Virus record (IMG/VR): IMGVR_UViG_3300023223_000579
Location: 1 to 46,195 of that record
Length of the DNA: 46,195 bases
Direction: 5' to 3' (one strand)
Source: a virus
This document shows positions 1,034 to 15,347 of this stretch, piece by piece; the first letter of the stretch is position 1, and each line of letters starts with the position of its first letter. Under the pieces are notes generated by a model, which was not told where the DNA came from, did no database searches, and saw only the letters and a list, made by a program, of their open reading frames with translations. The position numbers and the translations under genes were made by a program.

Positions 1034-1312
1034 TCATACGCCCCTTTCAGTTTCATCAGTGGTCCAATTTTGAGGCTCTTCTGTTGTGATGCTTACCATA
1101 GGAAATTCATCTTTTAATATATCCGCGCCAGCCTGTGTCAGCCTTTGTGAGTGTACAAGATAATGCGTTCCTTGTTCGTTCAGCTTGGGTGGACCTATTG
1201 TTTCTGAATCCTTGAACATTGCTATTACTTCTGAATAGCGTGTTTTAAATGCCTCATATGAGTAATTTGGATTAGATTGATTCATTACTGGCATTTTTAT
1301 ATAAAAAGTCAT
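1034..1312 (-). CDS. hypothetical protein, tail-fibre associated position
   Basis: 92 residues, not recognised. The start codon overlaps the stop of the preceding gene (TAATG), indicating translational coupling and supporting the 1312 start. It is polar and soluble with no membrane segment; the C-terminus (VSITTEEPQNWTTDETERGV) is acidic. It lies between two host-recognition genes, so it could be a fibre assembly chaperone or small accessory, but that is position alone. Confidence 0.6.
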   Translation of the reverse strand: MTFYIKMPVMNQSNPNYSYEAFKTRYSEVIAMFKDSETIGPPKLNEQGTHYLVHSQRLTQAGADILKDEFPMVSITTEEPQNWTTDETERGV

Positions 1313-2361
1313 TATACAACAGTCCTGTTCTGTCTTAATTCTAAATGAGCAACTAAAGCGGCAAATTCTCCATCGGTCAGGGTTCCTGTGCCCATCGCAA
1401 GACTATATAGGCGCATATTATCTGTTATGCCTCCTGCTGAACTTCCAGGGAAAAACCCTATTCGCATAGGAGATGAATTTGTTGAGGAGTTATTCATCTC
1501 TATTGCGATATCAGTTCCGGTTGTGCTGTCATTCCACCAAGTTGCCGTATCCGTGGCAGCGTCATGGTCAACATCATATCCTATCACATGGTCGCCTGTA
1601 GGACTTCCGTTTATGTCAGTTGTGTAAACTGCGCCTTTTGTTGCACTCCACTGCTCAAGCTTATGTGATTCATCGGGATTTTGAGTAAGAAAGACACCAT
1701 GATCTCCTGCTATATCTACAGTGCACATAAGCGGTCTATCTATCCAAGCACCGTCCGTACTATGCCACATTGATATTATCCAGAAGTTTTGGCCATCTGC
1801 TTTGTGAAGGTTATTCAGGAATGGTGTGTTACCTCCAATGAGATCAAATATCTCGGTATCTGTACCTGTCCAGAAGGCGGCTTGTGAACCAGCGGCGCCA
1901 TCAAAAATAGGGTCATCAGTTGTATTCGCAAGGGCAGTGCCCAACATTACGTGGTAAGCAGACTGTAGTTCACTATCATCTGGAGTAGGCTCAATGTTTT
2001 TCCAAAGTTGAGATCTTGCTGTTTCCGTACCATTGAAAGTCTCGGCAACAAAAGTGATTGTTACAACGATTTCGTTAGCCGAGACCGAATCTATTAAATG
2101 CGTAGCGTTATAAGTAGCCTCGACAGCTCCAGCAATGGTAAAAAAATCTCCAGCCTCAAAGTTATGGCCGGTCATGGGGAAGCCTGTATTACCGCCGCCT
2201 TTATCTACCGCTGCGGCAGCATCTAATGTCCCATGGAAATATGAATCTATATGTGTGGCATCCAGATCAAACACGCAAGTAGAATTGATCTCGCCCAAAG
2301 GTTCTTGTCCAGTTAGCGCCATGCCATCAACGCCAAAATATCCCACAGGAAATGTAAACAC
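1312..2361 (-). CDS. lectin-like receptor-binding protein
   Basis: 349 residues. The start is GTG at 2361, coupled to the previous stop (TAGTG) with an AGGAGAC site upstream. Residues about 61-118 (GHNFEAGDFFTIAGAVEATYN...) match the small beta-domain inserted in other virion proteins of this phage. Residues about 150-345 alternate strands and loops and end in RLYSLAMGTGTLTDGEFAAL, the usual end of a concanavalin A/LamG-like fold. A glycan-binding tail tip is the likely role. The fold assignment is by eye and moderately sure; the virion role is supported by its place between fibre genes. Confidence 0.65.
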   Translation of the reverse strand: MFTFPVGYFGVDGMALTGQEPLGEINSTCVFDLDATHIDSYFHGTLDAAAAVDKGGGNTGFPMTGHNFEAGDFFTIAGAVEATYNATHLIDSVSANEIVVTITFVAETFNGTETARSQLWKNIEPTPDDSELQSAYHVMLGTALANTTDDPIFDGAAGSQAAFWTGTDTEIFDLIGGNTPFLNNLHKADGQNFWIISMWHSTDGAWIDRPLMCTVDIAGDHGVFLTQNPDESHKLEQWSATKGAVYTTDINGSPTGDHVIGYDVDHDAATDTATWWNDSTTGTDIAIEMNNSSTNSSPMRIGFFPGSSAGGITDNMRLYSLAMGTGTLTDGEFAALVAHLELRQNRTVV

Positions 2362-3326
2362 TAGCTAAAGTCTCCTTGAAACACCCCGTCCATGTTTGAG
2401 CCGTCTGAAATAAACGTAATATAATCAACAGCATTTACGCCAGTTGATAGCGTGGGAGGGGTTCCACCGGGGAATCTATAAGCAGAACCAAATGCTATTA
2501 ATCTGGTTCCCGTACCATCCTGAACGAGCCTTAATATATAAGTGCCGCCATCCTGCATATTGGTAGGATTATCCAGCACAAGGTCGCCGTCTAGAATTAA
2601 CTCAGTAACCTGATCGTCCTCTAAATTCCATGGTACATTGGCCAGCCTAACCGTGACATCATCAATATCTCCTATGAAATCTAAATCGGCTCGGATATCA
2701 ATATCCCCACCAGCGCCCGCAACAATGTTTTCTGTGAATGTTCCGTTAGCAGCCCTGTCAGTTCCCTCTGTATCTCCAGCAACGGGTGTCACATTGCCTG
2801 CTGAAAAGTTAGAGACTGTGAATTCAACCTCGTAGGTCTGGCCGCTTGTTAGGGACAATGCTTGGTTAAGATCTGAGTCGCCCGCTTGCGACCCGTCAGA
2901 ACTGGCAACTCCTGCAGCAATAGACCAGCCCGGACCTTTAGCCCAGTCAGAATCTGTGGCAAACCCGCCATTGGTAATAAGGTCTGCACCCAGCGCTGTA
3001 AGAGATGTGGCATTAAAATTCTGCGCCTTTGTAAATTCCTGAGCTACATCAAGCTTTGCAACGTTGCTGACGGGCTCATATTTGCTTGTACCGTTATTAA
3101 AAGCAAGAATTTGACCATCAGCAGAACCAGCTAAAGTCATATCAACCGATTCAATACTGAAGCCGCCAGTCACATTCATTCTTGTGGAGGATAGTTGCAC
3201 AACACTGACTGTGCCCTCGCCATCTTCCATAGTCTGTAAAGTGCCCGTTAACCCGCTCGAATCGTTAGGAAGGCGCAAAAGACTGCGGAAGGTCAGATTA
3301 ATATTTTTACCGACCAGAGTTCCCAT
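2361..3326 (-). CDS. tail fibre protein with carbohydrate-binding-like middle domain
   Basis: 321 residues in three parts. Residues 1-60 (MGTLVGKNINLTFRSLLRLP...) probably anchor to the virion. Residues about 115-230 resemble a CBM4/9-type jelly-roll: NGGFATDSDWAKGPGWSIAAG, then ALSLTSGQTYEVEFTVSNFS. The C-terminal 90 residues (LILDGDLVLDNP...GTYILRLVQDGTG) recur at the ends of many phage fibres. It lies directly after the gp48-like baseplate gene, where Mu places its fibre gene S. Probably binds a surface polysaccharide. Confidence 0.75.
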   Translation of the reverse strand: MGTLVGKNINLTFRSLLRLPNDSSGLTGTLQTMEDGEGTVSVVQLSSTRMNVTGGFSIESVDMTLAGSADGQILAFNNGTSKYEPVSNVAKLDVAQEFTKAQNFNATSLTALGADLITNGGFATDSDWAKGPGWSIAAGVASSDGSQAGDSDLNQALSLTSGQTYEVEFTVSNFSAGNVTPVAGDTEGTDRAANGTFTENIVAGAGGDIDIRADLDFIGDIDDVTVRLANVPWNLEDDQVTELILDGDLVLDNPTNMQDGGTYILRLVQDGTGTRLIAFGSAYRFPGGTPPTLSTGVNAVDYITFISDGSNMDGVFQGDFS

Positions 3327-4025
3327 TTAAGCATTCTCCCATAACGTTGTTTCAATATCCCAGTTGTTGCTATTTGATAACCATGTTCCACCCGAGGCGC
3401 CCTCTTCGTCTTGTGCAACAAATCTAAAAATAACATCAGCATTTGCAGGTGCCAGCTTTTCAAACAAGCATATTATAACATTGTTTACTTCATTCCCGAA
3501 TACCACAGGAAAAGTAAAGTTGAAAACATTTAAGTCTATCGGGGTCAGGAAATCCACAACCATTGTAAAACGGGCATCACTGGGATTATTAAACAGAATA
3601 GCAGGAAATTCCATAGGGAACACGCCCCAGCGCCCGCCGCCGTCAACCCGCACTTCAAAACCGAGCTCCAGTGCCAAGGCCTCAAACCCTTCTTTGGTGG
3701 CCACACCCAAAGCGGTTAATTTTGTTACAATATTGTCTCTGCGCTCTTGAGAGGTTTCGGCAATCGGGAAACACTCATCTGGTATTCCAAGGGCTGATTC
3801 CCACTCAGATAAAAGTAATTCCGTATCAGCTGGAAAGTGCTCACAAATTACTTCGTTTTGCTTTCCCTCAGCACGAAACAATTCTATTCCGAGGCCTACG
3901 ATTAGATTCTTTAAAGTGGTGCCTTCCTGATTTTTGGCCTTAAATACCTTGCCATTAGGCAGGTAATTAGCCAGCGACTGGGCTTGCTCTTCTTCAGTAT
4001 GTGGACCAAATAATTTATCTGCCAT
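3327..4025 (-). CDS. Mu gp48-like baseplate protein (YmfQ/DUF2313)
   Basis: 232 residues. The N-terminus (EEEQAQSLANYLPNGKVFKA) and the middle block SEWESALGIPDECF with ERRDNIVTKLTALGVATKEGF are typical of YmfQ/DUF2313 proteins, which finish baseplate wedges and link them to fibres. The gene immediately follows baseplate J and precedes the fibres, the same order as Mu gp47-gp48-S. It is somewhat longer than the usual ~190 residues, with extra sequence near the C-terminus. Confidence 0.85.
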   Translation of the reverse strand: MADKLFGPHTEEEQAQSLANYLPNGKVFKAKNQEGTTLKNLIVGLGIELFRAEGKQNEVICEHFPADTELLLSEWESALGIPDECFPIAETSQERRDNIVTKLTALGVATKEGFEALALELGFEVRVDGGGRWGVFPMEFPAILFNNPSDARFTMVVDFLTPIDLNVFNFTFPVVFGNEVNNVIICLFEKLAPANADVIFRFVAQDEEGASGGTWLSNSNNWDIETTLWENA

Positions 4026-4027
4026 GA

Positions 4028-5581
4028 TTAAAAACTAATAGTTCCCAAAACGGGAATTTCACCTTCGTTAATTGTTACGTCACCAACTGGAGTCACAAGC
4101 GTAAAGTTTGATACAGCCTCAAAGGTTTCCGGGTTAACGGTCTGGAAAATAACAGACTCATATTCAAAATCTTTCAAGTCTTGCCCTACAGCCGTTTCAT
4201 CTGCGAATAAAGCTTGTAGATTTGCTGTGATAGCATCCCGCATTGTATTGCTGTCTGGCACAAGCAAAGAGAACGTGAAGCCCACTGTCACCCCTATAGG
4301 TGGGCGGACTATCACATCCCTATCATCGGTATGGGCGGGGGTTATTTCTAGCAGCTTTTGCTTCACATCGTCAGCCTCTTGGGCGGATGGAATAATATTT
4401 GCATCATCATCTCTAGTAAAATGTGTTACCACCACTCCAGGCGGGACAGTTAAGTCCACCAATATTGTGCCAGAAGCCGTAGGGTTACTGTCCAGCAAGA
4501 CAGGATAAGCCAGTTTAAAGTCATCTATTTTGATAACGCGCTGCTGGGTCACATTAAATTCAGGTTCGACTGCCCCTGTAACGGTGATTGCAAAGGTATC
4601 TTCTACATTATGTTTCGTTGCTCCAAAATCTACAATGGCTATAAAATCAGATTGAGTGATGCTTGAGGGCGTAAGCTGGGAGGCTATCTGCTCATTGGCT
4701 TTAGTTACAAATACACGAGTCACCCCAGAAACTTCGCGGGCTTTCTGCCTGATTCTCGGTTCATTAAATGGCGTTGGCGGCTCTTGGTAGACATCTAAAG
4801 TGCGCTCCCGTAAATTGACATCATCTTCGATATCGGTTGCACCAGAAACCTCTGAGAATTGAACCAGGGCGGTTCCGTCTACGCCAGCAAGGGGAGTCCC
4901 AAGGGTCAAAGCTGCGCCTGAAGCAAGGTTCTGGGTGCTACCAAAATCATCTGAACGCACATCTACATTAGCAATATCGGCGTTAGCTAGAATAGTGCCA
5001 GTTGCAGGGGAGGAGGGGCTTCCAACAATCTGATATGTGAAAGTATCTAAATCTGTAATTGTAATGGGAAACGTGCCGTTATATTCTGGTTCTACAGCAC
5101 CGGAAATAGTGACTTGTAATCCAGTTGCAAAATTATGGTCTGATACTGTTGTGATTGTAACCAAACTTGCCACTTGAGTGGCCGTTGAAACTGAGATTGA
5201 AGCAAACGCAATAGTGGCCGCAGCCTGCGAAACATATTGATTGCTGTCTGAGGACTGAAATAAAGTTGCGGCCGGGATGATGCTTCCAACTACTCCCGTA
5301 ACATTTATAAGGCCATTGGCTTTAGTGGCTGGGTTACGAGTGACGCCTTTCAACTCTCCCCATCTTTCTAAAAACTCATCTGTGGCGGTATCGGGAAATA
5401 TCTCACGAACTAATATCTTCAGGTTTTCAAATAAATCGAAAGTCCGGCCGGCATAGCCCTTGATCATGCTATCCAAAAAACTGTTCTTTAAGAACGGGTT
5501 AGACTCAGGTAAAGAAGTTTGGACGTCGGTTTTAATTCTCGACTCGACCTCCCTTCTGTTGGCTGGGAATTGAAGTGCCAT
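4028..5581 (-). CDS. baseplate J-like protein (Mu gp47 type) with two inserted domains
   Basis: 517 residues; a baseplate wedge protein of contractile tails. Family blocks are present: the N-terminal helical part (LKNSFLDSMIKGYAGRTFDLF), the beta part ending LTLGTPLAGVDGTALV, DVNLRERTLDVYQEPPTPFN, and the C-terminal VIFQTVNPE region. The family core is split twice. Residues about 139-200 hold HNFATGLQVTISGAVEPEYN...TFTYQI...PATGTI, and 313-376 hold a diverged copy (ITVTGAVEPEFN...SGTILVDL). These explain its size over simpler homologues. It is transcribed with gp46 and gp48 homologues, although an HNH gene now separates it from gp46. Confidence 0.9.
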   Translation of the reverse strand: MALQFPANRREVESRIKTDVQTSLPESNPFLKNSFLDSMIKGYAGRTFDLFENLKILVREIFPDTATDEFLERWGELKGVTRNPATKANGLINVTGVVGSIIPAATLFQSSDSNQYVSQAAATIAFASISVSTATQVASLVTITTVSDHNFATGLQVTISGAVEPEYNGTFPITITDLDTFTYQIVGSPSSPATGTILANADIANVDVRSDDFGSTQNLASGAALTLGTPLAGVDGTALVQFSEVSGATDIEDDVNLRERTLDVYQEPPTPFNEPRIRQKAREVSGVTRVFVTKANEQIASQLTPSSITQSDFIAIVDFGATKHNVEDTFAITVTGAVEPEFNVTQQRVIKIDDFKLAYPVLLDSNPTASGTILVDLTVPPGVVVTHFTRDDDANIIPSAQEADDVKQKLLEITPAHTDDRDVIVRPPIGVTVGFTFSLLVPDSNTMRDAITANLQALFADETAVGQDLKDFEYESVIFQTVNPETFEAVSNFTLVTPVGDVTINEGEIPVLGTISF

Positions 5582-5582
5582 A

Positions 5583-6224
5583 CTAATTTACCTTTCTATG
5601 CCCATGAAAATTATCATAGGTGTTTTGGTTTATTGGCTCATGGAGGGCTTTTTCTATTGGCCACCCAAGATTTAACCTACTTGATAGTGTATCAAATTTT
5701 AACCCAAATTTATTGGCCAAATCTGTAAGACAATATTTTTTGCCATTATATTCAACAATTCTATTGTTCCGCTTATTTCTACCTTGTTCATACTGAGTAG
5801 CCCATTTGCAATTATCTGGCTCATAGTTTTTATTATTATCAATGCGTTCTAAAGTGGTTCCTTCGGGGCGATTGCCCATATCGGCATAGAAATTCCTAAA
5901 ATCTCTCCATCGATCGCAGACTACAATACCGCGACCTCCATAGTTTTTATAACTAATATTATTAGGATTTGTGCATCTTTGGATCATGCAATCCCAAGAA
6001 CAATATTCAGGAGTGCCTTGTCCCCCATGCTTTGTTGAGGCTTTTGTTTTTGTGCATGTAATACATAAAGATTTTGCGTGCACCAATCCCATACCCCTCA
6101 TGTATTCTGCACCACATTTACATTCAAGAAACCAATATGATGATTTCAATTTAGTACCGTCTTTGATAAACCGCTTATATCTTAGAAATTTACTATAAAT
6201 TAAATCTTCTTTTTTAATTGCCAT
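5583..6224 (-). CDS. free-standing HNH homing-type endonuclease
   Basis: 213 residues. A Cys cluster (C35-x-C37, C54-x2-C57) probably binds zinc. The core at about 90-150 has KNYGGRGIVVCDRW, then TLERIDNNKNYEPDNCKWAT and EQGRNKRNN, a motif set of phage HNH/AP2-linked homing nucleases. Residues 156-193 (YNGKKYCLTDLANKFG...TLSSRLNLGWPIEKAL) look like a DNA-binding helix-turn-helix tail of these enzymes. It fits exactly between the gp46 and gp47 homologues with 1-2 bp on each side. This suggests it moves as a selfish gene and has no virion role. Confidence 0.85.
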   Translation of the reverse strand: MAIKKEDLIYSKFLRYKRFIKDGTKLKSSYWFLECKCGAEYMRGMGLVHAKSLCITCTKTKASTKHGGQGTPEYCSWDCMIQRCTNPNNISYKNYGGRGIVVCDRWRDFRNFYADMGNRPEGTTLERIDNNKNYEPDNCKWATQYEQGRNKRNNRIVEYNGKKYCLTDLANKFGLKFDTLSSRLNLGWPIEKALHEPINQNTYDNFHGHRKVN

Positions 6225-6226
6225 TT

Positions 6227-6685
6227 TTAATCCAATGATGTGCCTGTGTTTGACCAGATGTCAAAACTAAAGCTATCTACCTTACTGCCATTCCGCAGCA
6301 ATACTATCTCCAGAATGATAGTTTCCGGCTCCAGTCTACCTGAGACCTCGACTGCTTCAACATGATTATCATTAATCAACCACTGTAAAGCTTGCCGCGC
6401 ATAATCGATAGCCCTATTTAATGTTTCTTGATTGAGCCTAGCCTGATCGATCAACCATAACTTGGACCCGATCTCAAAAGCGGCCTCATCGAACAATTCG
6501 TTTGCCCACCAACCTCTTCTGCGCTCAGACGGTATCATTTCCTGCCTATCTGCCCGACGTTCTTCAAACAGGGACATCTTGAGCGATGTATCAAAGCCTT
6601 CTGTAGCCAATAGGTCGCCAGTAGCAGGGTCAATGCTTATATCAAAATCACCTCGATCTGTGCTTTTTACATCAATGTCTATCAT
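6227..6685 (-). CDS. Mu gp46-like baseplate protein
   Basis: 152 residues, close to the family's usual size. The block MIPSERRRGWWANELFDE with GSKLWLIDQARLNQETLNRA is characteristic of GP46 proteins, which are thought to form part of the inner baseplate (gp25-like region). It overlaps the spike gene by 4 bp (ATGA). The neighbouring order (gp45, gp46, gp47) is that of Mu apart from the HNH insertion. Confidence 0.88.
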   Translation of the reverse strand: MIDIDVKSTDRGDFDISIDPATGDLLATEGFDTSLKMSLFEERRADRQEMIPSERRRGWWANELFDEAAFEIGSKLWLIDQARLNQETLNRAIDYARQALQWLINDNHVEAVEVSGRLEPETIILEIVLLRNGSKVDSFSFDIWSNTGTSLD

Positions 6686-7308
6686 AGCGTTTGATTTGGC
6701 CCGTCTGTTGGTGCCGGCGCATTGTCGTTCTCGTCATGGGTATGGGTATTATAAATTGACTGGAAGTTATTTAAGCTTTCTTCAGTGCTACCGAAATCCC
6801 ACTTAATGTCATCACGCACCCGCAATTCACCGTTGATTCTAAATTCGTCTACATTACATGTTAACAGACCGCCATTCACAGTTACAGTCTCATTGCCTTG
6901 GATAGTCACATTTCTGGCTCCGCTAATGTTGATTGTATCATCGCCAGTGATATTGATAATCCTGTCATTTTTGACGAATATATCTAAATCCCCGTTGGCC
7001 TTTAAAGTGATTCGGGTCTTGGTTAATGTATTGAAAAGTGCAACTTCCCCTTCTTTGAGGTCTTTTGGCCGGCGGTCATAATCGTTAAATATACCAGCGC
7101 GGTTTTGTTCCTGCGCCTGGATATTAAAGACAAGCCCTATACTGCCCTCGGGAGGTGACGAATAGAAGCCATAGGGGGTTACGAACCAGATATCATTAAC
7201 CTTTGTCATGAACTTGGCTTTTAGAAACGGAAATTTCTTAGTATCAATCATAGGATCGGTACTTAGAGCAATCTTTATCATGCTAACCATTTTATTAAAC
7301 ATACTCAT
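6682..7308 (-). CDS. baseplate spike, Mu gp45/gpV-like
   Basis: 208 residues. An N-terminal OB-fold-like part is followed by short beta repeats (residues about 100-165, DLDIFVKNDRIINITGDDTI then RNVTIQGNETVTVNG) that should form a trimeric beta-helix. The end carries THTHDEND (His about 189 and 191). In P2-type and Mu-type spikes an H-x-H motif at the apex coordinates iron. The protein would pierce the outer membrane. It overlaps its neighbours by 4 bp on both sides. Confidence 0.88.
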   Translation of the reverse strand: MSMFNKMVSMIKIALSTDPMIDTKKFPFLKAKFMTKVNDIWFVTPYGFYSSPPEGSIGLVFNIQAQEQNRAGIFNDYDRRPKDLKEGEVALFNTLTKTRITLKANGDLDIFVKNDRIINITGDDTINISGARNVTIQGNETVTVNGGLLTCNVDEFRINGELRVRDDIKWDFGSTEESLNNFQSIYNTHTHDENDNAPAPTDGPNQTL

Positions 7309-8435
7309 GTGCTTGGTACCTGAAATTTAAAAACTTGTTTACTGGCTTTATCTTTTGTTGGCTCTGCAATAGTTAATGTAAACGCATCTTTTCTAACCAA
7401 TGTAAGCAATGTTGTATTTCCCCTATTATTATCCACCTCAAACGAAACATCTTTTATAAGTAATTCGGTATCGTTCTCAAAACCAAAATCGTCAATGACT
7501 CTGATAATTCTATTGGGCTCATATATACCAATGCCGCCAGAATGGCCTTTGACACGATACCGATAAACAAGTGATCGGCTTTTTCTAACATCTGCCTCCC
7601 ACTGGGCACGCTCTTGTAATTCTTCCAAATCTGTAGAATTTTCGGCTTGAATTTGCAATACCCTGCTTTCTCTTATTTCATCATCAGTAGCCAGATTATT
7701 ACGCTCAACAATATTGTCATTGTCTTTTGAGATATTACTGATAGATAAAAACGTCGGATTTCCTACGCTGTGAAAGATATATCTATTATATCGCTCTGAA
7801 TCATCAATAGCTATTTCCCCATCCAGAATATTATTGAAAGATGTGTCCTGGGGTGAGGCAACATGAACAAGAATGGCCTGTTGTCTTAGCGTGTCGGCAC
7901 CGCGTACAAACACTAGGCTCCCATCGCCGTTTGTGGTTAAAAGCACTTGTCTCTTACGAGCATAGCGTTCAAGAATTTCAAAGCCCTTCTCTGCCACTTC
8001 ACCTGAAAAGGGGGAGTCTCCATTAAAGGGCTTTAAATCTGGAACCAGCGTATCATCTACAATGATATCCAGATTTAGTGTTGTGATCACTTTTTGGGCC
8101 AACTGTGTTAATGTGAAACCACCAACAGCATCGGGATTTAATTCAATGCCTCCATCAACGTGAGAGTCTATTAAATCCGCTGTTTTAGATCGCCCTGTTA
8201 ATCTGGTTTGATGACTAAAGGCATTATAAGTAGTTATGCTTTGTTCAATAAATCCTGTTAAGAACAGTTCGTTATCTACAAATAGTTTAACTGCCCCACC
8301 GCGCTGGAATGGCAACACTTCTCTTGTACCCTGAACTGTTATAGAAAATATACCGCTAACGGCTTCAACAGAACGAGAAACACTCGCCTCTGTAAATCCT
8401 GTAAATCTTTGTCCGTCAAATTCGATTTCAATCAT
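7305..8435 (-). CDS. baseplate hub, Mu gp44/gpD-like
   Basis: 376 residues. The N-terminus (EIEFDGQRFTGFTEASVSRS, then GIFSITVQG) and the block FIEQSITTYNAFSHQTRLTG are typical of gp44 hub proteins of the gpD/gp27 family. These form the ring on which the spike sits. It overlaps the gpN homologue and the spike by 4 bp each, so the three are translationally coupled. Confidence 0.88.
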   Translation of the reverse strand: MIEIEFDGQRFTGFTEASVSRSVEAVSGIFSITVQGTREVLPFQRGGAVKLFVDNELFLTGFIEQSITTYNAFSHQTRLTGRSKTADLIDSHVDGGIELNPDAVGGFTLTQLAQKVITTLNLDIIVDDTLVPDLKPFNGDSPFSGEVAEKGFEILERYARKRQVLLTTNGDGSLVFVRGADTLRQQAILVHVASPQDTSFNNILDGEIAIDDSERYNRYIFHSVGNPTFLSISNISKDNDNIVERNNLATDDEIRESRVLQIQAENSTDLEELQERAQWEADVRKSRSLVYRYRVKGHSGGIGIYEPNRIIRVIDDFGFENDTELLIKDVSFEVDNNRGNTTLLTLVRKDAFTLTIAEPTKDKASKQVFKFQVPST

Positions 8436-9652
8436 GCGCTTAAGATTTTCAAATCTCCGCCTAAAAATGTCGGGTTGTTGGATTCGTTCAAATCAACAAG
8501 TGCTTCTGTATTCTCAGTCGTTCCATACAAACGGTGACTCAATACAGTGGCCGGAACATCTGGAGAAGAGAAGTCAGTTATTCTAAACGCCTGCAGCCTT
8601 TGGTCATCGAAGAACTCTCTTGTTAGGTTTCTGAGCACTTGCATCTCAGCAAACATCTCGTCGGGTAATGCTTTTGGCTTTGTTTCAAATATCTCGTTAA
8701 GCTCTTGAAATCGCTCCTCAAGGGCGGATTGGCGCTGATCAACCTGCACATCTGTTTGATATTCTAGGTTCTGGGATTCAATATATTCGTCTTTTAATGC
8801 AACTGTTTTCACAGCGGTTTGAATTATATCCCTGTTGTTTTGCCGCTGCGCCCGTTGGACTGTGGTTATAGGCACATCAGCAAACTGGGAATCAAAATTA
8901 AACAGCTTCTCAGAGATAAGTATTTGATTTGATGGGGTGATGCCTAGCTGGGCATTCTGGTCAAACAATGTATCAAACTGACTAGCCAAGTTAGTCGGGT
9001 TGTTGATTAGCGGGCGTAGATTATCCTTAAAATCATTAAGCGTTAAAAAGAAATCATTCAATTGATCCGGGTCTGTATTTAATACACTCAGATTATCATT
9101 ATATACCCCGAGAACCTCTGAAATAATAGATTCGGCATCCGTGAAGTTTAATGCAAAGAACCGCCCTATTTCAAAGTTTTCAGCTATGTTCGCAACCAGA
9201 ATATCCTGAACTCTTGTGCCGGAAGCCACAGAAGCCGCTGCTTTAGATCCCACTGTATCGCTGGGGGTTAGGCCAATGGCTTCTTCCTGAACCTCGAAAC
9301 TCATTGTAAAGACGGCTCGGCCAATGTCTGTGAATCCCTGTGATAGCGTATAGTTAATTAATGCGACATTTAACGTTCCAAAGAAAGGATGCACCAGCTG
9401 CCCTGGGCCTTCGCTTTCCAACGCTGATATAAGAGCGTCACGTCGTGCAAAGTATTCCCCCTGTTTTCCGTCATGGATAATGCCCGTAATAGAGAAACTT
9501 TTTTGCATCTTTCCAAGGTCTTCAACTTCCCTTGTATCCCTGTTTGGGAACTCATGGGTTACAGTTTTTCTGCCACCTTGGGTGCGGTCATCCCTCATAA
9601 GGAACGGGGCTCCTTTAAAACTGGCAGCCTGTGTCTGGTTTAAAATGCTCAT
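8432..9652 (-). CDS. Mu gpN-like tail/DNA-circularisation protein
   Basis: 406 residues. The first 130 residues (GAPFLMRDDRTQGGRKTVTHEF, with GPGQLVHPFFGTLNVALINY) match the DNA_circ_N domain of Mu gpN, despite its name a structural protein of the tail distal end. The C-terminal part is helical with Gln/Glu/Arg-rich stretches. It follows the tape measure with a 1-bp overlap, as in Mu. Confidence 0.85.
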   Translation of the reverse strand: MSILNQTQAASFKGAPFLMRDDRTQGGRKTVTHEFPNRDTREVEDLGKMQKSFSITGIIHDGKQGEYFARRDALISALESEGPGQLVHPFFGTLNVALINYTLSQGFTDIGRAVFTMSFEVQEEAIGLTPSDTVGSKAAASVASGTRVQDILVANIAENFEIGRFFALNFTDAESIISEVLGVYNDNLSVLNTDPDQLNDFFLTLNDFKDNLRPLINNPTNLASQFDTLFDQNAQLGITPSNQILISEKLFNFDSQFADVPITTVQRAQRQNNRDIIQTAVKTVALKDEYIESQNLEYQTDVQVDQRQSALEERFQELNEIFETKPKALPDEMFAEMQVLRNLTREFFDDQRLQAFRITDFSSPDVPATVLSHRLYGTTENTEALVDLNESNNPTFLGGDLKILSA

Positions 9653-11487
9653 TAACCCCCACCCATGTTGCGACCAGTTTGTACCACGCTGACATTACCT
9701 GACGCGTCTGTACTTGATTGAACGCTTTTAACATTAGTCTTTTCATCGGTTTCAAGTCTAACCTTCACATCAACCGCCACTGGCGTTGTTAATGCTGGAG
9801 TGAATGGGCCGAACCTTTCTTGATCTTTGGCTAAAGATAGCTTCTGGAAACTACGTTCTAGCGCATCAACATCTACACCGATCCCCCCTCGGCGAATCTG
9901 AAGTTTCGTTTCAGAAAGTGCCGCATTTAAAGCAAACAACCTTTTTGCTTCTGGGCTGCTCCCCATTACTTTGACGTTAGCTATTCCCTTGGCAACTTTT
10001 TTATTAACGTTTACGCCAAGCTCTTCGTTTAATTTTTTGACTTCTTTGTTCATGCCTTTGAATTTATTTATTATGCCGCCCAAGCCTTTTCCAATACCCG
10101 TTGCTAATAAACCCCCTAAAGCTACCCCTAGAAGCCCCACTCCCGCTGTAATGGCAACCACAGACGCAAGCCCACCAACAAATCCAGCAACAGTTGCTCC
10201 AAACACAGCAGTCACCCCCAGTCCAACGATAGCAAGCCCAGCCAATGCAAATTTTAAGAGGAACGCAGCTGCGATAAGTGCAATCACCGCTATAGTCATT
10301 GAGGTTATAAATCCTGTAATTTTCGGGAACCTGTTCGCAAAAGTGGCAAAAGTATCATTAATATTTGTAATGCTTTTTGCCAGTAAATTGATCAACGGCA
10401 GCTGTGTTTCACCAATTTCTATCCCCAGTCTTTTAAAACTGTTTTTCGTTAAATCTAAATTAGCTTGTGTGGTGGCCAGCACATTTGCTAGCTCTCGCTG
10501 AACCGAACCTGCAAAAACAGAACGATTTGTGGCAATATCAAGGGCTTCTGTATATTTACCCATATTTTGAGCCAAGGTAACTACATTAAGTGCAAATCTT
10601 TCTCCAAATAGATCAACCGCAGCGGCTATTCTTGCTTTTTCTGGTAAATCCCTTAATTGCTCAAGAACAGCTAGCAATGTTCCTTGAGGGTCAACCTGAA
10701 ATGCTTCAAAACCTGCTTCCCCTATTTTTTCTACATCTTTAAAGGCTAATGTCATTCGTCTAATTGTTGTGCCCACTTGTGATCCTTGGATTCCTAAAGC
10801 CGTTAGTGTGGCCGCCAGCGCTATAGATTGGTTTGCGGTTAATCCCATTTGCTTACCTACTAAAGCCGTCCTGTTCGCCATTGCGTTTAATAACTCGACC
10901 CCCGTAAGCTCTAAACGGTTAGATAGCTCATTGGTAGCATCAGTCATGTCGCGCACAGCTGCCGTCCCACCACCAAAAATATTTTCAAATCTGGCAAAAA
11001 CTGTAGCCGCCTCTTCTGGATTAATTCCCTCAATCGCTACGGATGTTTCCGAAATAAGCCTAGTAAATTCTTTAAGGTTAGGTAATGCCACGCCGATTTT
11101 TTTACCAGCGGCAGCTGTCCGTAATAAGATTTCTGGAGCAGTTGGCAAGGTTTTTGATAAATCTAAAGCGATATCTCGAATTGTCGCCAAGTTTTCTGGA
11201 GACACTTCTCGTAAAACCTTTTTAACATTGGCCATTTCAGTTTCAAAGCGAATCGCCTCTCGAACGGGCAGAATCACACTAGCGGCTGCTGCCGCCACAC
11301 CAATAAGCCCTGAGCGCGTTCCTGCTAATTGTCGTCTATTTTTAGCCAACTTATCAGACAGCTTACCAGTAGCCCCGCCAGCCGCTAAAACCCTCAGTTT
11401 CATTTTCTCAGCAGATCTAGCAACTCTCTGCGATGATTTAGAAAATTTATCTTGTAGCCGAACTATAAATGATACATTAAATGGCAT
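9652..11487 (-). CDS. tail tape measure protein
   Basis: 611 residues, short for a tape measure, so a short tail is expected because length scales with this protein. The block at about 75-330 (REAIRFETEMANVKKVLREV, ELTGVELLNAMANRTALVG, LGIQGSQVGTTIRRM) is the TIGR01760 tape-measure core. Residues about 389-475 are very hydrophobic (VIALIAAAFLLKFALAGLAI...) and may insert into the inner membrane. The start ATG is 3 bp after the stop of the frameshifted chaperone. Confidence 0.9.
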   Translation of the reverse strand: MPFNVSFIVRLQDKFSKSSQRVARSAEKMKLRVLAAGGATGKLSDKLAKNRRQLAGTRSGLIGVAAAAASVILPVREAIRFETEMANVKKVLREVSPENLATIRDIALDLSKTLPTAPEILLRTAAAGKKIGVALPNLKEFTRLISETSVAIEGINPEEAATVFARFENIFGGGTAAVRDMTDATNELSNRLELTGVELLNAMANRTALVGKQMGLTANQSIALAATLTALGIQGSQVGTTIRRMTLAFKDVEKIGEAGFEAFQVDPQGTLLAVLEQLRDLPEKARIAAAVDLFGERFALNVVTLAQNMGKYTEALDIATNRSVFAGSVQRELANVLATTQANLDLTKNSFKRLGIEIGETQLPLINLLAKSITNINDTFATFANRFPKITGFITSMTIAVIALIAAAFLLKFALAGLAIVGLGVTAVFGATVAGFVGGLASVVAITAGVGLLGVALGGLLATGIGKGLGGIINKFKGMNKEVKKLNEELGVNVNKKVAKGIANVKVMGSSPEAKRLFALNAALSETKLQIRRGGIGVDVDALERSFQKLSLAKDQERFGPFTPALTTPVAVDVKVRLETDEKTNVKSVQSSTDASGNVSVVQTGRNMGGG

Positions 11488-11489
11488 TT

Positions 11490-12076
11490 TTATCTCTTTG
11501 AAGCTTTGGCTATGTCAGCATTAATCCTATTCATATTATCTACTAATTCGCCAATCAAAGGAAGGGGCATACTGTGCAAGGCTTCCCAAGACAGCCCCCC
11601 TTGATAGAAATACATTAAGTTTGCAAAGGTCTTTAAAAGCTTTAAGTAATCTTGTTCATCCAGGAGGCAATCAAAAAATTTTCAAGATACATCCCCAGAA
11701 TTGACATTAAATCTTCGTCAGAGAGTTTCTCAAATAAAGCTGGTTTAAATGGCTCTTTACCATCTACCAGAGCAATTCCTTTGCACATAAGGTCTTTGAA
11801 ATCTTCTGTATATTGTCCAAAATCAACTGTCTTGCTCATCATAATAGCGCCGACAATCTCATCGCCTTTTATGGAGCTTTTAGAAGAGCTGGGTTCTGGT
11901 TGTTCAGCGCCCGTATCGAAGTCCCTGACGGCCTGAAAGAAGCCTTGCTTCAACTTGGCTGTAAATCTGGAATAATTGGCTGTGGGGGCTTTTAAAACGA
12001 TATGGCTGGCTTCTACCATCATGCCATCATGGGCATATTCAAAGCCCCCCGTAAGGTCATATTGAAATTCTTGCAT
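11490..12076 (-). CDS. long tail assembly chaperone made by -1 frameshift
   Basis: Ribosomes slipping back one base at 11675-11681 leave the 144-codon frame after codon 134 and read 61 more codons to a TAA at 11490-11492, giving about 195 residues. The extension (DCLLDEQDYLKLLKTFANLM, GGLSWEALHSMPLPLIGELV) looks like the C-terminal T domain of tail chaperones and has no start of its own. The short form coats the tape measure and the long form recruits tube subunits in lambda G/GT. Its place between tube and tape measure is exactly where this signal occurs in Mu-like phages. Confidence 0.85.
11642..12076 (-). CDS. tail assembly chaperone, short form (Mu gp41-like)
   Basis: 144 residues, the unshifted product. 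It has a mainly helical, acidic profile (FQYDLTGGFEYAHDGMMVEA; KPALFEKLSDEDLMSILGMY). It lies between the tail tube gene and the tape measure, the universal position of G-type chaperones. The slippery site is 10 codons before its stop, so most of this protein is shared with the long form. Confidence 0.82.
   Translation of the reverse strand: MQEFQYDLTGGFEYAHDGMMVEASHIVLKAPTANYSRFTAKLKQGFFQAVRDFDTGAEQPEPSSSKSSIKGDEIVGAIMMSKTVDFGQYTEDFKDLMCKGIALVDGKEPFKPALFEKLSDEDLMSILGMYLENFLIASWMNKIT
11675..11681 (-). promoter_or_regulatory. -1 ribosomal frameshift slippery site
   Basis: Minus-strand heptamer A AAT TTT in the chaperone reading frame (codons GAA AAT TTT TTG). It fits X XXY YYZ with X=A, Y=T, Z=T, so both tRNAs can re-pair after a -1 slip. 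The shifted frame is open to the base before the tape-measure start region. Confidence 0.8.
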
Positions 12077-12096
12077 TGGATCCTCTTGATTAAAAT

Positions 12097-12483
12097 TTAT
12101 GTTGCAGGTTGTGTCATAAATTCTAAATCAATTTGCTCGTCGCTGCCAAGGTTAATATCAGGATCGTTATTTAACGTTGCACAAATAAACGTCCTGGAAA
12201 AGCCTTCTCCGTCTGTAATGGCTATCACAGCGGCTTCACCAGCTTTTAGACTTCTGGCAAGCTCGATGTTTGCCAGTGTGGGAAAAAAGGACATCTTAAC
12301 AGTAGAGAGGGCTGTTTCAACATTTTGCGAATCAACCTTTTCGGTTACGCCGCCGCCAGCTGACTGCACTTCACTCTTTTGCTCTCCGAAACCTTCTGTG
12401 TATGACACAGAGTTTGGAACAACTTTAACGGCGTCGTTGTTAATGACGACTTGTGGGTCAACTATTTTTTTAGCGCCAGCCAT
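12097..12483 (-). CDS. tail tube protein, Mu gpM-like
   Basis: 128 residues. Beta-rich with a typical start (DPQVVINNDAVKVVPNSVSY) and a pattern of strands separated by short loops. It lies directly after the sheath gene, as Mu gpM follows gpL. It would form the inner tube of the contractile tail. Family identity is inferred from size, strand pattern and order. Confidence 0.83.
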   Translation of the reverse strand: MAGAKKIVDPQVVINNDAVKVVPNSVSYTEGFGEQKSEVQSAGGGVTEKVDSQNVETALSTVKMSFFPTLANIELARSLKAGEAAVIAITDGEGFSRTFICATLNNDPDINLGSDEQIDLEFMTQPAT

Positions 12484-12496
12484 ATCTTAAGTCCTT

Positions 12497-14032
12497 TTAG
12501 GTTATGCTAAATGCGATTTGCATGTTAGCGAGGATTGTTCGCAATTGAGTTACAATTGGAGTTTGCATATCAATAGCTACAGCACCATTGATTTTATCAA
12601 TAGTTACGGTCCTGTTAGTCTTGAAAAATTGAAGGGCGGCCTCGCCTGCTTCGGTTACAACAAAGTCGGGTCCGGAAAGCTCTGTGTAAAGCTTGTCCAG
12701 CTCAGTCTCGATTATAATCTGATTAGCCATGGAGCGTCCTGGTTGAATCGGACCCTCTACAAGCCTGCTTTGACGGAAGCGAGCACGAAGGTTATTAAAG
12801 AAGAACTCGCGGGCTACGCTTGCTGCATCGACAGCATTTAAGAACTTGAATGTTTTCTCAGGGTTTGCAGCTGCGTCTGTTTTCTTTGTGGTGACGACCT
12901 CGCCCAGAATAACTGTGTTTCTGGCTGTGTTATTGGACAGAACAGAAGCACCAGCTGTCTGCAGGTCTTCAATCTCTTCACGGGTAAATGTGAAACTGAT
13001 TGGTATAACATCCAGCGCAGTAAACGGGGTGTTGAAATAAGGAAGAGTGGAAAGCGCAGGACCGCCGAACTGATCACGCCCGCCAAATGGGGTAATGACC
13101 AAATTAGCGATGTTGGTGCCGTCTGTAAGGCGCTTAGAGCGTGCTGCCCCCACCAGAGAGGCAACCACATAAGGCGCCTCTTGTAATGCGCCGCCTTCAA
13201 CCAGATTAGCTGGATCTACAACCAACTTATCGCCCAGCAAGACCAAGCTTTCGGAATTCTCGGCATTAGCAGCCGTTTCCAGATTAGAGAAAGTATCCAC
13301 CTTACCAACAAGGCCAACGCCATCCAGAACGTCATTAACGACATTAAAGCGGGCATCAAGGAAGGTTGTCAGGGTAGATAGGTCTGAACTGAAGGGCCAC
13401 AGAACTGTTTGGTATCTTTGGTCAGCCAGCACATCAAAGACAGTGGTAAGGGTTGGTGTCAGTGTGCCTCCTGTAAAGGCAGTTGTTGCCAATGTAATAC
13501 CAGTGACATCGCTTGTGATAACCAGCGGAAGCTCATTGAATTCAACGCCTGCTGTATCATAAGTCAAGGTCACAACTTCAGATACCTCAGCGGAACTATA
13601 ATTAGATACTGCATCCAGGGCGGTATCAATCTGACCAGCCACAGTAGATGCTGAAGCGCCGCTGGCAACGCTAAGGACAATGTCATCAATGAAGTTGCCC
13701 AGCTTGATCCTAAGAGTCCCAGTGGCTGTAGCTGTTCCTGTGACGGTAATAGTGGCATCGGGGCTTGCACCTGCACCAGCGGCAAGAGGAATAACATCAA
13801 GGCGGGTATTACCGTTAATAGACTTGAATGCCTTAATCATTTGCGCAAGCTCTGAATTCTGACCGAATGTAGCGTCTTCTGTGCCATCGTTCGGGAAGTT
13901 CTCGATCAAGGCACCGGCTGTGCCTGCAAATGTTTCAAATACCCCAACTACAAGCACCCTTTGCTCTTCATTAGAAATCTGCTCCTGGGCGGGCAGTATA
14001 TTAATGGTTACGTCTGGCTGTGATACTGTCAT
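12497..14032 (-). CDS. contractile tail sheath, Mu gpL-like
   Basis: 511 residues, near the family's usual length. The N-terminus (QPDVTINILPAQEQISNEEQ) and the block GATFGQNSEL-like followed by INGNTRLDVIPLAAGAGASP are typical of gpL sheath proteins. The C-terminal block (GRSMANQIIIETELDKLYTE, then ITQLRTILANMQ-like end) is the conserved inner ring domain. It overlaps the small gp38-like gene by 4 bp. Confidence 0.92.
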   Translation of the reverse strand: MTVSQPDVTINILPAQEQISNEEQRVLVVGVFETFAGTAGALIENFPNDGTEDATFGQNSELAQMIKAFKSINGNTRLDVIPLAAGAGASPDATITVTGTATATGTLRIKLGNFIDDIVLSVASGASASTVAGQIDTALDAVSNYSSAEVSEVVTLTYDTAGVEFNELPLVITSDVTGITLATTAFTGGTLTPTLTTVFDVLADQRYQTVLWPFSSDLSTLTTFLDARFNVVNDVLDGVGLVGKVDTFSNLETAANAENSESLVLLGDKLVVDPANLVEGGALQEAPYVVASLVGAARSKRLTDGTNIANLVITPFGGRDQFGGPALSTLPYFNTPFTALDVIPISFTFTREEIEDLQTAGASVLSNNTARNTVILGEVVTTKKTDAAANPEKTFKFLNAVDAASVAREFFFNNLRARFRQSRLVEGPIQPGRSMANQIIIETELDKLYTELSGPDFVVTEAGEAALQFFKTNRTVTIDKINGAVAIDMQTPIVTQLRTILANMQIAFSIT

Positions 14033-14241
14033 TCTTTAGGTTCCTTTTGAGGCTTTGACTTTGCAGAAGCTTTTCTTTTATTTTTCACTATTTCGCAGCA
14101 ATTATCAAGTTCGCTGTCTTTTAATCTTGCGCGCCACCAGCGGTCAAGGGGAGCGCCCTTTTGGTCGGCTGGGACTGATACTATCTGATCCGCCTTATGG
14201 CCACCGATATCCCTGTTCAACTTTATTTTAATTGTTTTCAT
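14029..14241 (-). CDS. Mu gp38-like small protein (DUF2635-like)
   Basis: 70 residues. Its central VPADQKGAPLDRWWRARLKD resembles the V-P-x-W-x-R-R-L-x-D signature of DUF2635, the protein between gp37 and the sheath in Mu-like phages. The C-terminus is basic and Lys-rich. It overlaps both neighbours (gp37-like by 1 bp, sheath by 4 bp). The role is unknown in the family. Confidence 0.72.
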   Translation of the reverse strand: MKTIKIKLNRDIGGHKADQIVSVPADQKGAPLDRWWRARLKDSELDNCCEIVKNKRKASAKSKPQKEPKE

Positions 14242-15347
14242 TATAATGGCTCGTCATCTAAATCAATATTAGCGGTTAAATCAGTATCAGGCAAGTTAGG
14301 AAGGAAATCAACCGCGATATCCCTGAACGCTACATCGTTTATATCTAAATTAACGTCACCTGTAATAATATCACTAACGATTTCAAAAAGAAACTGGTGG
14401 ACAAAATAGGAGTCATTATCAACCAATACCCCGTCTGATATAAAGGTCAGCCCAGAGAATTCTTTTTCGCAGAGTCCGTCGTCGAATCTGAAGTTCAAAA
14501 GCGATTGAAATAATACAGCACGAAGATCTTGCATGTTATCGCGTGCCAGCCTTGCCCCTCGATTATCTTCTACAGAGGGCACAAAAACCACTATAGCGAC
14601 TTCCTGTACTATTCTTTGCCTGTAATCATCGCCTGCCTGAATGGTGGCGGTGGCGTCTGAGTTTATATTCCTATCCTTACTTGCTGTGGTATCACCTATA
14701 ACTATGAAAGCATAAAGCTGGTCAATATCGGTTTGCTTTGTATAAGCCCTCAAAGCCCTGTCCGCTGATATGGCTCCAGTTATCCGGACATCCTTTTGAA
14801 TTGTTATAGTCCCGCCAATGGTGGATTCAATGTCTGGTGCGCTGGCTAATTCATAAGTGAAGGATGTTGCCCCAGTGACAGTGATTTGATGCTGACCGTT
14901 TAAGCCTCGATCGCCAAAATCGAATAAAAGAATTGTGCCTGTGGCGGGGGTTGTGTTGGTATCTGGGACATTGATATTGATTGTTTGTCTGTTAGGAGGT
15001 GGCAAATCAACATTAAAAGTTCCGTTCCATTCTGCTTCATTGGCCCCGGATATCTCTATTGTCGGGATAATCGTATCAACATTCTCATTAAAGGTAACGT
15101 CATGATCTTGATCTGTATCAATGGTCGCGAATCCATCAACATGGGTTATCGAATCAACCGAGATAATCCCCTTGGCTCCTAAAACCGTGACAAACTCCCC
15201 TGTGGTTAATAAATGACTAGCTGTAGTGTTAACAGTAACGGTGGTACCTGCAACAGTCATAGAAGAAACGGAAAGCTGCGTGCTGAAATCGTTGGTTAAA
15301 AGCGGCACGGTTGCTTTCATATGTTTGATGACGTCAGCGCCTTTCAT
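14241..15347 (-). CDS. Mu gp37-like tail terminator with inserted beta domains
   Basis: 368 residues, about twice the size of a plain Mu gp37/DUF1834 protein. The core is residues 1-25 plus about 185-368 (RALRAYTKQTDIDQLYAFIV, QEVAIVVFVPSVEDNRGARL, VLFQSLLNFRFDDG...). Between them lie about 155 beta-rich residues with two or more diverged copies of the domain also inserted in baseplate J (IEISGANEAEWNGTFNVDLP...PATGTI; ITVTGATSFTYELAS). Terminator function is inferred from position before gp38 and the sheath. Confidence 0.72.
   Translation of the reverse strand: MKGADVIKHMKATVPLLTNDFSTQLSVSSMTVAGTTVTVNTTASHLLTTGEFVTVLGAKGIISVDSITHVDGFATIDTDQDHDVTFNENVDTIIPTIEISGANEAEWNGTFNVDLPPPNRQTININVPDTNTTPATGTILLFDFGDRGLNGQHQITVTGATSFTYELASAPDIESTIGGTITIQKDVRITGAISADRALRAYTKQTDIDQLYAFIVIGDTTASKDRNINSDATATIQAGDDYRQRIVQEVAIVVFVPSVEDNRGARLARDNMQDLRAVLFQSLLNFRFDDGLCEKEFSGLTFISDGVLVDNDSYFVHQFLFEIVSDIITGDVNLDINDVAFRDIAVDFLPNLPDTDLTANIDLDDEPL

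Follow-up and report, generated by a model that had tools for sequence, protein, structure and literature searches.

The stretch analysed here (the window) comprises 46,195 nucleotides of viral DNA, record IMGVR_UViG_3300023223_000579 of IMG/VR. Three virion proteins encoded on its minus strand carry copies of a small beta domain. Neither an Rfam match nor a tRNA was found in the window. The genes and domain copies are as follows, with the source of each assignment in brackets:

1312..2361, minus strand: lectin-like tail protein, 349 aa (label from a sequence-only reading; homologue in a sister phage, L227)
2014..2229, minus strand: domain copy in the lectin-like protein, about residues 45-116 (hmmsearch, phrog_9998, sister-gene comparison)
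4028..5581, minus strand: baseplate J-like wedge protein (BJ), 517 aa, host of copies 1 and 2 (Pfam Baseplate_J, phrog_6, Foldseek)
4970..5194, minus strand: BJ domain copy 1, residues 130-204 (hmmsearch; pLDDT about 90-95; absent from Mu gp47)
4445..4666, minus strand: BJ domain copy 2, residues 306-379 (hmmsearch; hhalign to copy 1; gaps in relatives)
14241..15347, minus strand: tail terminator ('gp37-like'), 368 aa, its N-terminal part interrupted by a nested pair of copies (phrog_209, Pfam, Foldseek)
15168..15272, minus strand: outer copy, N half, residues 26-60, strands 23-33, 36-41 and 52-56 (profile alignment, hmmsearch)
14919..15167, minus strand: inner intact copy, residues 61-143, strands 59-143, inside the outer copy (profile comparison, hmmsearch)
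14790..14903, minus strand: outer copy, C half, residues 149-186, strands 151-157, 162-166 and 176-185 (profile alignment, hmmsearch)

Two of the hosts were assigned to known families. BJ belongs to Pfam Baseplate_J (PF04865; 3e-34, 118.8 bits against a cut-off of 21.1) and matches phrog_6 at 9e-48, and its predicted model matches the Mu baseplate protein 9ki1 with a Foldseek E of 1.6e-21. The terminator is assigned through phrog_209 (5e-9; the name given to this family in PHROGs is 'portal protein') and through Foldseek matches of its model to the solved Mu, T5, lambda and Milano terminators (prob 0.97-1.00); its score against Pfam Phage_tail_terminator, 22.5 bits, lies below the cut-off of 27. 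The terminator's own sequence retrieved no relatives when used as query, and an alignment with four relatives led to 40; one relative, L069, had no match in 50,697 cultured phage records. The lectin-like protein has no Pfam name above cut-off and no match in the 50,697 cultured phage records or in IMG/VR, so that its domain copy is documented by one sequence and its sister.

The five segments are almost certainly copies of one inserted domain of about 75 residues and six strands, present twice in BJ, twice in the terminator and once in the lectin-like protein. The preliminary description had proposed such a domain in three virion proteins, twice in BJ. A profile built from six copies in unrelated phage proteins, from which the window and all BJ and terminator sequences were left out, was searched with hmmsearch against all 249 ORFs of the window and recovered all five: BJ copy 1 at 79 bits (iE 2.5e-24), BJ copy 2 at 17 bits (5e-5), the intact terminator copy at 29 bits (1e-8), the two half copies in the terminator at 24 bits each (4-5e-7) and the lectin-like copy at 16 bits (1.2e-4 / 5.9e-6). 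The top score in 20 shuffled sets was 8.9 bits; the remaining ORFs of the window all scored 5.6 bits or less and provided no further copy. In profile-profile comparisons, the four sites with multiple sequences aligned with each other and with outside copies over their full length at 97-99.8% probability (99.8% for BJ copy 2 against copy 1, by hhalign), whereas core segments of BJ and the terminator, used as controls, reached at most 28%, bar two core segments with 21 columns in common. The possibility that the segments share no profile, raised at the outset, falls: the sites match one another and the cores do not.

Comparison with relatives indicates that the copies were added to their hosts, as had been suggested for BJ. 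Phage Mu gp47 has neither BJ copy, query positions 129 and 199 at the copy 1 site meeting at chain residues 124-128, and the cultured BJ homologues are without copies. Copy 1 occurs in all 67 relatives examined; copy 2 is present in 57 and missing from ten, always at one turn, where a short turn stands in its place (for example FVEEATPDAGQV). On the core tree, the presence and absence of copy 2 amount to 6 changes, at least 3 of them forced by well-supported branches. The lectin-like copy, originally placed at residues 61-118, spans about 45-116; the profile recognises its middle only (64-104), and it matches phrog_9998 at 2e-4. The sister phage has the same gene (L227) without the copy, the missing stretch corresponding to the whole domain, and the two genes align with a score of 191, where 200 shuffles gave no more than 73.

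In the terminator, the two copies are very likely nested rather than tandem, in the order A-[A-B]-B, the outer copy being broken at its SGA|YNG loop, which joins strands 3 and 4. Its N half aligns with domain columns 4-37 (97.5%) and its C half with columns 41-73 (91-94%). Once spliced, the outer copy aligns over its full length and outscores either half alone. Profiles free of terminator sequence recover the order N half, whole copy, C half in 24-25 of 34 terminator homologues, where, with the copy-1 profile, the N half ends at column 36-37 and the C half starts at 38-41; judged by alignment columns, all 34 aligned terminators carry the nested pair. BFVD contains one protein of matching fold (TM 0.77-0.83). 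It is very improbable that the terminator instead has a tandem pair with rearranged segments (A-B-A-B, or a swapped pairing of halves): which halves pair is not readable from sequence, but tandem duplication does not give the observed order A, A-B, B, and the copy in the middle is whole and has a normal loop. Of the initial proposal of at least two diverged copies at about residues 30-185, the copies themselves are real, and the count becomes exactly two, one nested in the other. Self-nesting in the terminator is new here, and the pair clearly exemplifies how a domain can take its own homologue into a loop. The earlier sequence-only reading had missed this arrangement.

On the domain tree, which was used for clustering by site only, each site forms a cluster of its own, with too few columns to tell which site seeded which. 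Recent exchange between copies inside the genome was rejected, because the sites have diverged, with 29-38% identity to copy 1, and cluster by site. That the BJ 1, BJ 2, inner and outer sites were each filled once, then inherited with later losses, is supported although not shown. Further carriers of the domain are sheath, major tail, head-closure (Hc3), esterase, tailspike, tail assembly and other proteins, in keeping with the expectation that it had spread as Ig-like domains do. Among cultured phages, it is carried by the sheath of Pantoea phage PdC23, by the major tail protein of Microbacterium phage Big4 and by Pseudomonas phage 8P. A genome scan yielded one locus only. PHROGs 9998, 5838, 529, 701 and 19630 each contain it, and phrog_9998 matches all 18 copies tested; these are nevertheless whole-protein families of unlike lengths and functions, which do not define the domain. 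Taken together, the sequence comparisons establish the common descent of the copies, their insertion into otherwise complete hosts, their repeated presence and absence, and their occurrence in many unrelated families of virion proteins.

The fold is probably of the E1-FCCH / endosialidase-barrel type. The family had been left without a certain name. Its closest named relatives, through matches that are weak but coherent, are E1_FCCH in Pfam and the barrel with which the K1F endosialidase binds polysialic acid. E1_FCCH (PF16190) is the best-matching Pfam family, with 6 of 18 copies at E<=0.1. No window copy passes its cut-off of 29.5 bits (best, 19.7), but a relative's phage copy, at L224, scores 35.5 bits, and the wider family thus overlaps PF16190. 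The best PDB sequence match is an E1 (E 0.6-1.8), with H-G-F...G-D-x-V...N-G...T-F in register; hhalign to the E1 segment scores 23.3 against at most 13.0 for shuffles; and UBA1/UBA6 are among the Foldseek matches of the BJ and terminator models (prob 0.3-1.0, from whole-protein searches without alignment ranges). The E1 FCCH is itself an inserted domain, which contacts ubiquitin and not sugar (PMC12355090). It works in ubiquitin transfer, whereas the phage copies sit in virion proteins; their hosts contain no E1 adenylation domain, and a role in ubiquitin activation does not apply. The phage branch also differs in often ending in a conserved TPATGTI-like segment beyond the matched part. A literature search, in which subscription journals were poorly covered, returned no paper describing the phage family and none linking E1_FCCH to phage.

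For the endosialidase beta-barrel family (PF12195, cut-off 35 bits), no window copy is listed and none passes, and a related copy at L226 reaches 13.4 bits over positions 10-76 of 83. Alignment by hhalign to the K1F barrel is beyond chance, at 26.4 against at most 12.9 in 60 shuffles and at most 16.7 in other K1F segments, with H-G-L-x-x-G-D-x-V and x-F-T-V in register, and endosialidases are among the Foldseek matches of the BJ model. Like the phage copies, the K1F barrel is a small barrel inserted in a virion protein, within the propeller at residues 424-506, but the two resemble each other only weakly (67% over the segment, 15.5% over the whole protein). The barrel bears a polysialic-acid site (S460/S468/G504) that affects host discrimination (PMC12632334). 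S460 and S468 map to the conserved SGA...YNG segment, although the window copies do not strictly conserve the contact residues.

Among domains scattered over phage particles, the Ig-like ones are the textbook case, and their function is debated. Review PMC9022992 describes them (Big_1, Big_2, I-set, FN3) as small beta domains found in virion proteins that include fibre, baseplate and tail-tube; they are optional and sometimes inserted between core strands, as the new domain is. Our domain likewise occurs in several virion classes and is optional, which supports the view that it works like them, not that it belongs with them: the Ig-like, Big and FN3 Pfam families gave no match above cut-off, and identity with an Ig domain was rejected on this ground. 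The conserved pattern and the best fold relatives are also different, and self-nesting, a feature of the new domain, is not described for Ig-like domains in the passages of the review consulted (PMC9022992). Matches to CP2, C2, PKD_6, Cadherin-like and other Pfam families were single, weak and below cut-off, and were taken as chance. The copies represent a second scattered family, Ig-like in habit and not recognisably related to Ig by sequence, which a misleading name (E1_FCCH) or the label 'unknown function' has until now concealed. A broader reading, less likely than not, would make the domain a largely unrecognised, very widespread FCCH / endosialidase-barrel insertion domain, kin of the eukaryotic E1 FCCH, which would form a second 'Ig-like' virion-decorating system able to use its own loop as insertion site (in the terminator and, more weakly, in the unrelated protein L223).

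What the copies do is a matter of weighing. We give an even chance to the favoured joint explanation, that they are copies of one small beta-barrel which folds independently and which phages place, as an accessory domain, in turns and loops of virion proteins, with a role in surface binding. The putative binding role, taken by itself and argued by analogy, falls a little short of even. The barrels would sit on the outside of the virion and add a weak affinity for ligands on the cell surface, glycans being the likeliest; this may raise adsorption, as is thought for phage Ig-like domains and carbohydrate-binding modules. The K1F endosialidase is the one phage relative with a known ligand; as its contacts are not strictly conserved and the E1 FCCH contacts ubiquitin, the fold alone does not give a binding role. 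The sites also differ in habit. All terminator homologues found keep the nested pair, a pattern more in line with a structural part than with an optional adhesin, and the head-tail joint, where the terminator lies, is an odd place for a receptor binder.

A structural reading, in which the barrels stabilise the tail by filling gaps or clamping neighbouring subunits within the rings of baseplate and terminator, with no outside ligand, is on balance unlikely but the strongest competitor. It draws on the nested pair being retained in 34/34 terminators long after both copies diverged, on BJ copy 1 being universal among the 67 relatives, and on host and insert strands that are continuous in the model (BJ 125-137 and 195-210). 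Against this, the presence of BJ copy 2 and of the lectin-like copy varies among relatives, Mu-type baseplates and terminators function without any copy, and the domain is also found in tailspikes and esterases, proteins acting at the cell surface. The copies could instead be tolerated passengers, a stable and easily inserted fold spread by recombination and kept by permissive exposed turns with no selected function. The many unrelated hosts, the self-insertion at a loop and the repeated loss of BJ copy 2 speak for this; we consider it improbable, however, as the copies are intact, in frame, recognisable at low identity and gathered in one cluster per site, and hence kept over long times. The probability that the segments are integral to their host cores and alike by convergence is close to nil. 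Model confidence is high across the junctions, but in relatives and in solved homologues the segments are missing at one point, and full-length profile matches link the sites and not the cores. For BJ, this reading is excluded by the existence of relatives without copies; for BJ copy 2 and the lectin-like copy, homologues without them refute it. Returning to surface binding, BJ copy 2 and the lectin-like copy offer natural with/without pairs among relatives which, with one weak relative of known sugar ligand, make the role of virion decoration directly testable.

A second candidate for self-nesting was encountered in L223. Its spliced copy was reached by 13, 476 and 24 of 1000 combinations of the N half with a shuffled C half, which is no clear win; the C half itself was equalled by 0-11 of 1000 shuffles, and this weaker case is suggestive only.

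The preliminary description had reported one small beta domain in three virion proteins of the window, twice in the baseplate J-like protein (BJ). A profile built from six copies in unrelated phage proteins on other contigs, and run against every ORF of the window, recovers all of them, which confirms the observation.

Copies of the domain and their scores with the outside profile
BJ, residues 130-204: copy 1, 79 bits
BJ, residues 306-379: copy 2, 17 bits
Tail terminator, residues 26-60: N half of an outer copy, 24 bits
Tail terminator, residues 61-143: whole inner copy, 29 bits
Tail terminator, residues 149-186: C half of the outer copy, 24 bits
Lectin-like protein: one copy, 16 bits

The top shuffled sequence reached 8.9 bits and the next real ORF 5.6 bits. 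Copy 1 alone, searched against the window's own record, matched in the same three genes, and PHROG 9998 (function unknown) matches all three proteins. Profile-profile comparison among the four sites represented by many sequences gave 97-99.8% probability over the full length, and core segments of the same host proteins gave no match to the domain (≤28%). As judged from these profiles, the copies are real. BJ belongs to the Mu gp47/Baseplate_J proteins; PHROG 209 and Foldseek matches to solved terminators (Mu, T5, lambda, phage Milano) identify the 'gp37-like' protein as a tail terminator; and the lectin-like protein matched no family above cut-off.

The interpretation of the copies as added domains is supported and extended. 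Among 67 aligned BJ relatives from IMG/VR, an uneven sample drawn by patterns, copy 1 is present in all 67 and copy 2 in 57; the other 10 have a short turn (e.g. FVEEATPDAGQVTIFF) where the window protein has ~80 extra residues. Both copies are missing from the solved Mu gp47, in which BJ residues 129 and 199 join at chain residues 124-128, and residues 291 and 382 at chain residues 215-224. Cultured homologues are short at these sites too, that of Paraburkholderia phage IPK having 339 residues for window BJ 11-517. The lectin-like gene has a homologue, adjoining the same fibre gene, in sister phage L227 (BJ 83% identical), whose alignment lacks ~residues 45-116, which hold the domain. Sequence comparison thus shows that the copies are added parts of their host proteins. 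On a core tree with insert columns removed, copy 2 requires 6 changes, at least 3 of them forced by well-supported branches; because the copy-2 sequences group together, one gain and several losses is the simplest reading of this pattern-drawn, uneven sample.

In the tail terminator, at least two diverged copies had been placed at residues 30-185; the copies stand, and they lie as one whole copy between an N half and a C half. Domain columns 4-37 are covered by the N half and columns 41-73 by the C half; spliced together, the two halves align along the entire domain and score above either alone. Profiles devoid of terminator sequences detect both halves and the whole copy in 24-25 of 34 terminator homologues; in the remainder, the most distant included, at least one part falls below detection and the columns still align. 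With a copy-1 profile, the N half ends at column 36-37 and the C half starts at column 38-41 across homologues. The AlphaFold2 model (34 sequences) has a mean pLDDT of 83; values are 79-97 for the bulk of residues 20-190, with a dip to 67 around 81-90. In BFVD, the model of one protein from an uncultured phage fits the terminator along its entire length (TM 0.77/0.83). Since the modelled strands run 23-33, 36-41 and 52-56, then 59-143, then 151-157, 162-166 and 176-185, and the BJ copy 1 model has six (125-137, 140-145, 156-162, 169-177, 180-184, 195-210), we infer that the halves pair and that the inner copy sits between strands 3 and 4 of the predicted outer one. An unrelated phage protein (L223:3017-5188) has an N half, a whole copy and a weak C half, and may be a second self-nested case.

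The top Pfam match of the domain is E1_FCCH, with the best window copy below the cut-off (19.7 versus 29.5) and a related copy above it (35.5). Against PDB sequences the best hit of the domain profile was likewise an E1, at an E value (0.6-1.8) that is not significant by itself, and the Foldseek hits of both the BJ and terminator models include E1 enzymes. For BJ, Foldseek also points to the beta-barrel domain of phage endosialidase; in hhalign, the domain profile scored double the best shuffle against the K1F barrel, and the rest of K1F gave nothing comparable. The E1 and endosialidase leads, each weak, agree on one small barrel, inserted in E1 (PMC12355090), in the endosialidase propeller and in the window proteins.

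The K1F barrel holds one of three polysialic-acid sites, and its substitutions S460R, S468D and G504V are reported to alter host discrimination (PMC12632334, preprint). S460 aligns with the S/A before G, and S468 with the invariant N, of SGA...YNG, a segment among the most conserved in the domain and the one harbouring the inner copy in the terminator; the K1F contact residues are not strictly conserved in the copies. Because of this barrel site and the alignment of S460 and S468, accessory binding of surface glycans appears the likeliest role: on the outside of the virion the domain would act as discussed for phage Ig-like domains in PMC9022992. The nested terminator pair, which is invariable, could as well be structural.

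The scattering of one domain over phage particle proteins is a known type of phenomenon; no description of this family, its kinship or its self-nesting was found in the papers searched, a set with few subscription journals. With a permissive threshold (E up to 1), tblastn of copy 1 matched 305 of 50,697 phage records, mostly cyanophages.

Carriers found by tblastn and verified with the domain profile
Tail sheath, Pantoea PdC23
Major tail protein, Microbacterium Big4
Head-closure protein, EBPR podovirus 1: two copies
Esterase, Rhizobium RHph_Y1_11
Tailspike, Stappia SI01
Tail assembly protein, Pseudomonas 8P
Baseplate-region proteins, cyanophages
Protein of Yersinia phage 06.16-1: 75 residues longer than its PHROG

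A Yersinia phage protein annotated 'endosialidase' (L233:3467-4327) matched no catalytic endosialidase family and may owe its name only to the barrel domain. Other genes of the window were noted in passing.

Further genes of the window
2361-3326 (-): tail-fibre-like protein, strongly conserved in L227; residues 114-185 match PHROG 30593 (2e-11) and resemble a carbohydrate-binding-type module
5583-6224 (-): free-standing HNH-type endonuclease-like gene (from translation), directly upstream of BJ, between BJ and the GP46 gene; a similar gene also lies close to BJ in sister contig L229
12497-14032 (-): tail sheath (phrog_165) in which residues ~90-190 appear to form an additional beta-rich segment, distinct from the studied domain and found, diverged, in related sheaths L022-L025
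28872-31306 (-) and 32220-32888 (-): two DNA methyltransferase-like genes, along with a serine recombinase-like gene (translations only)
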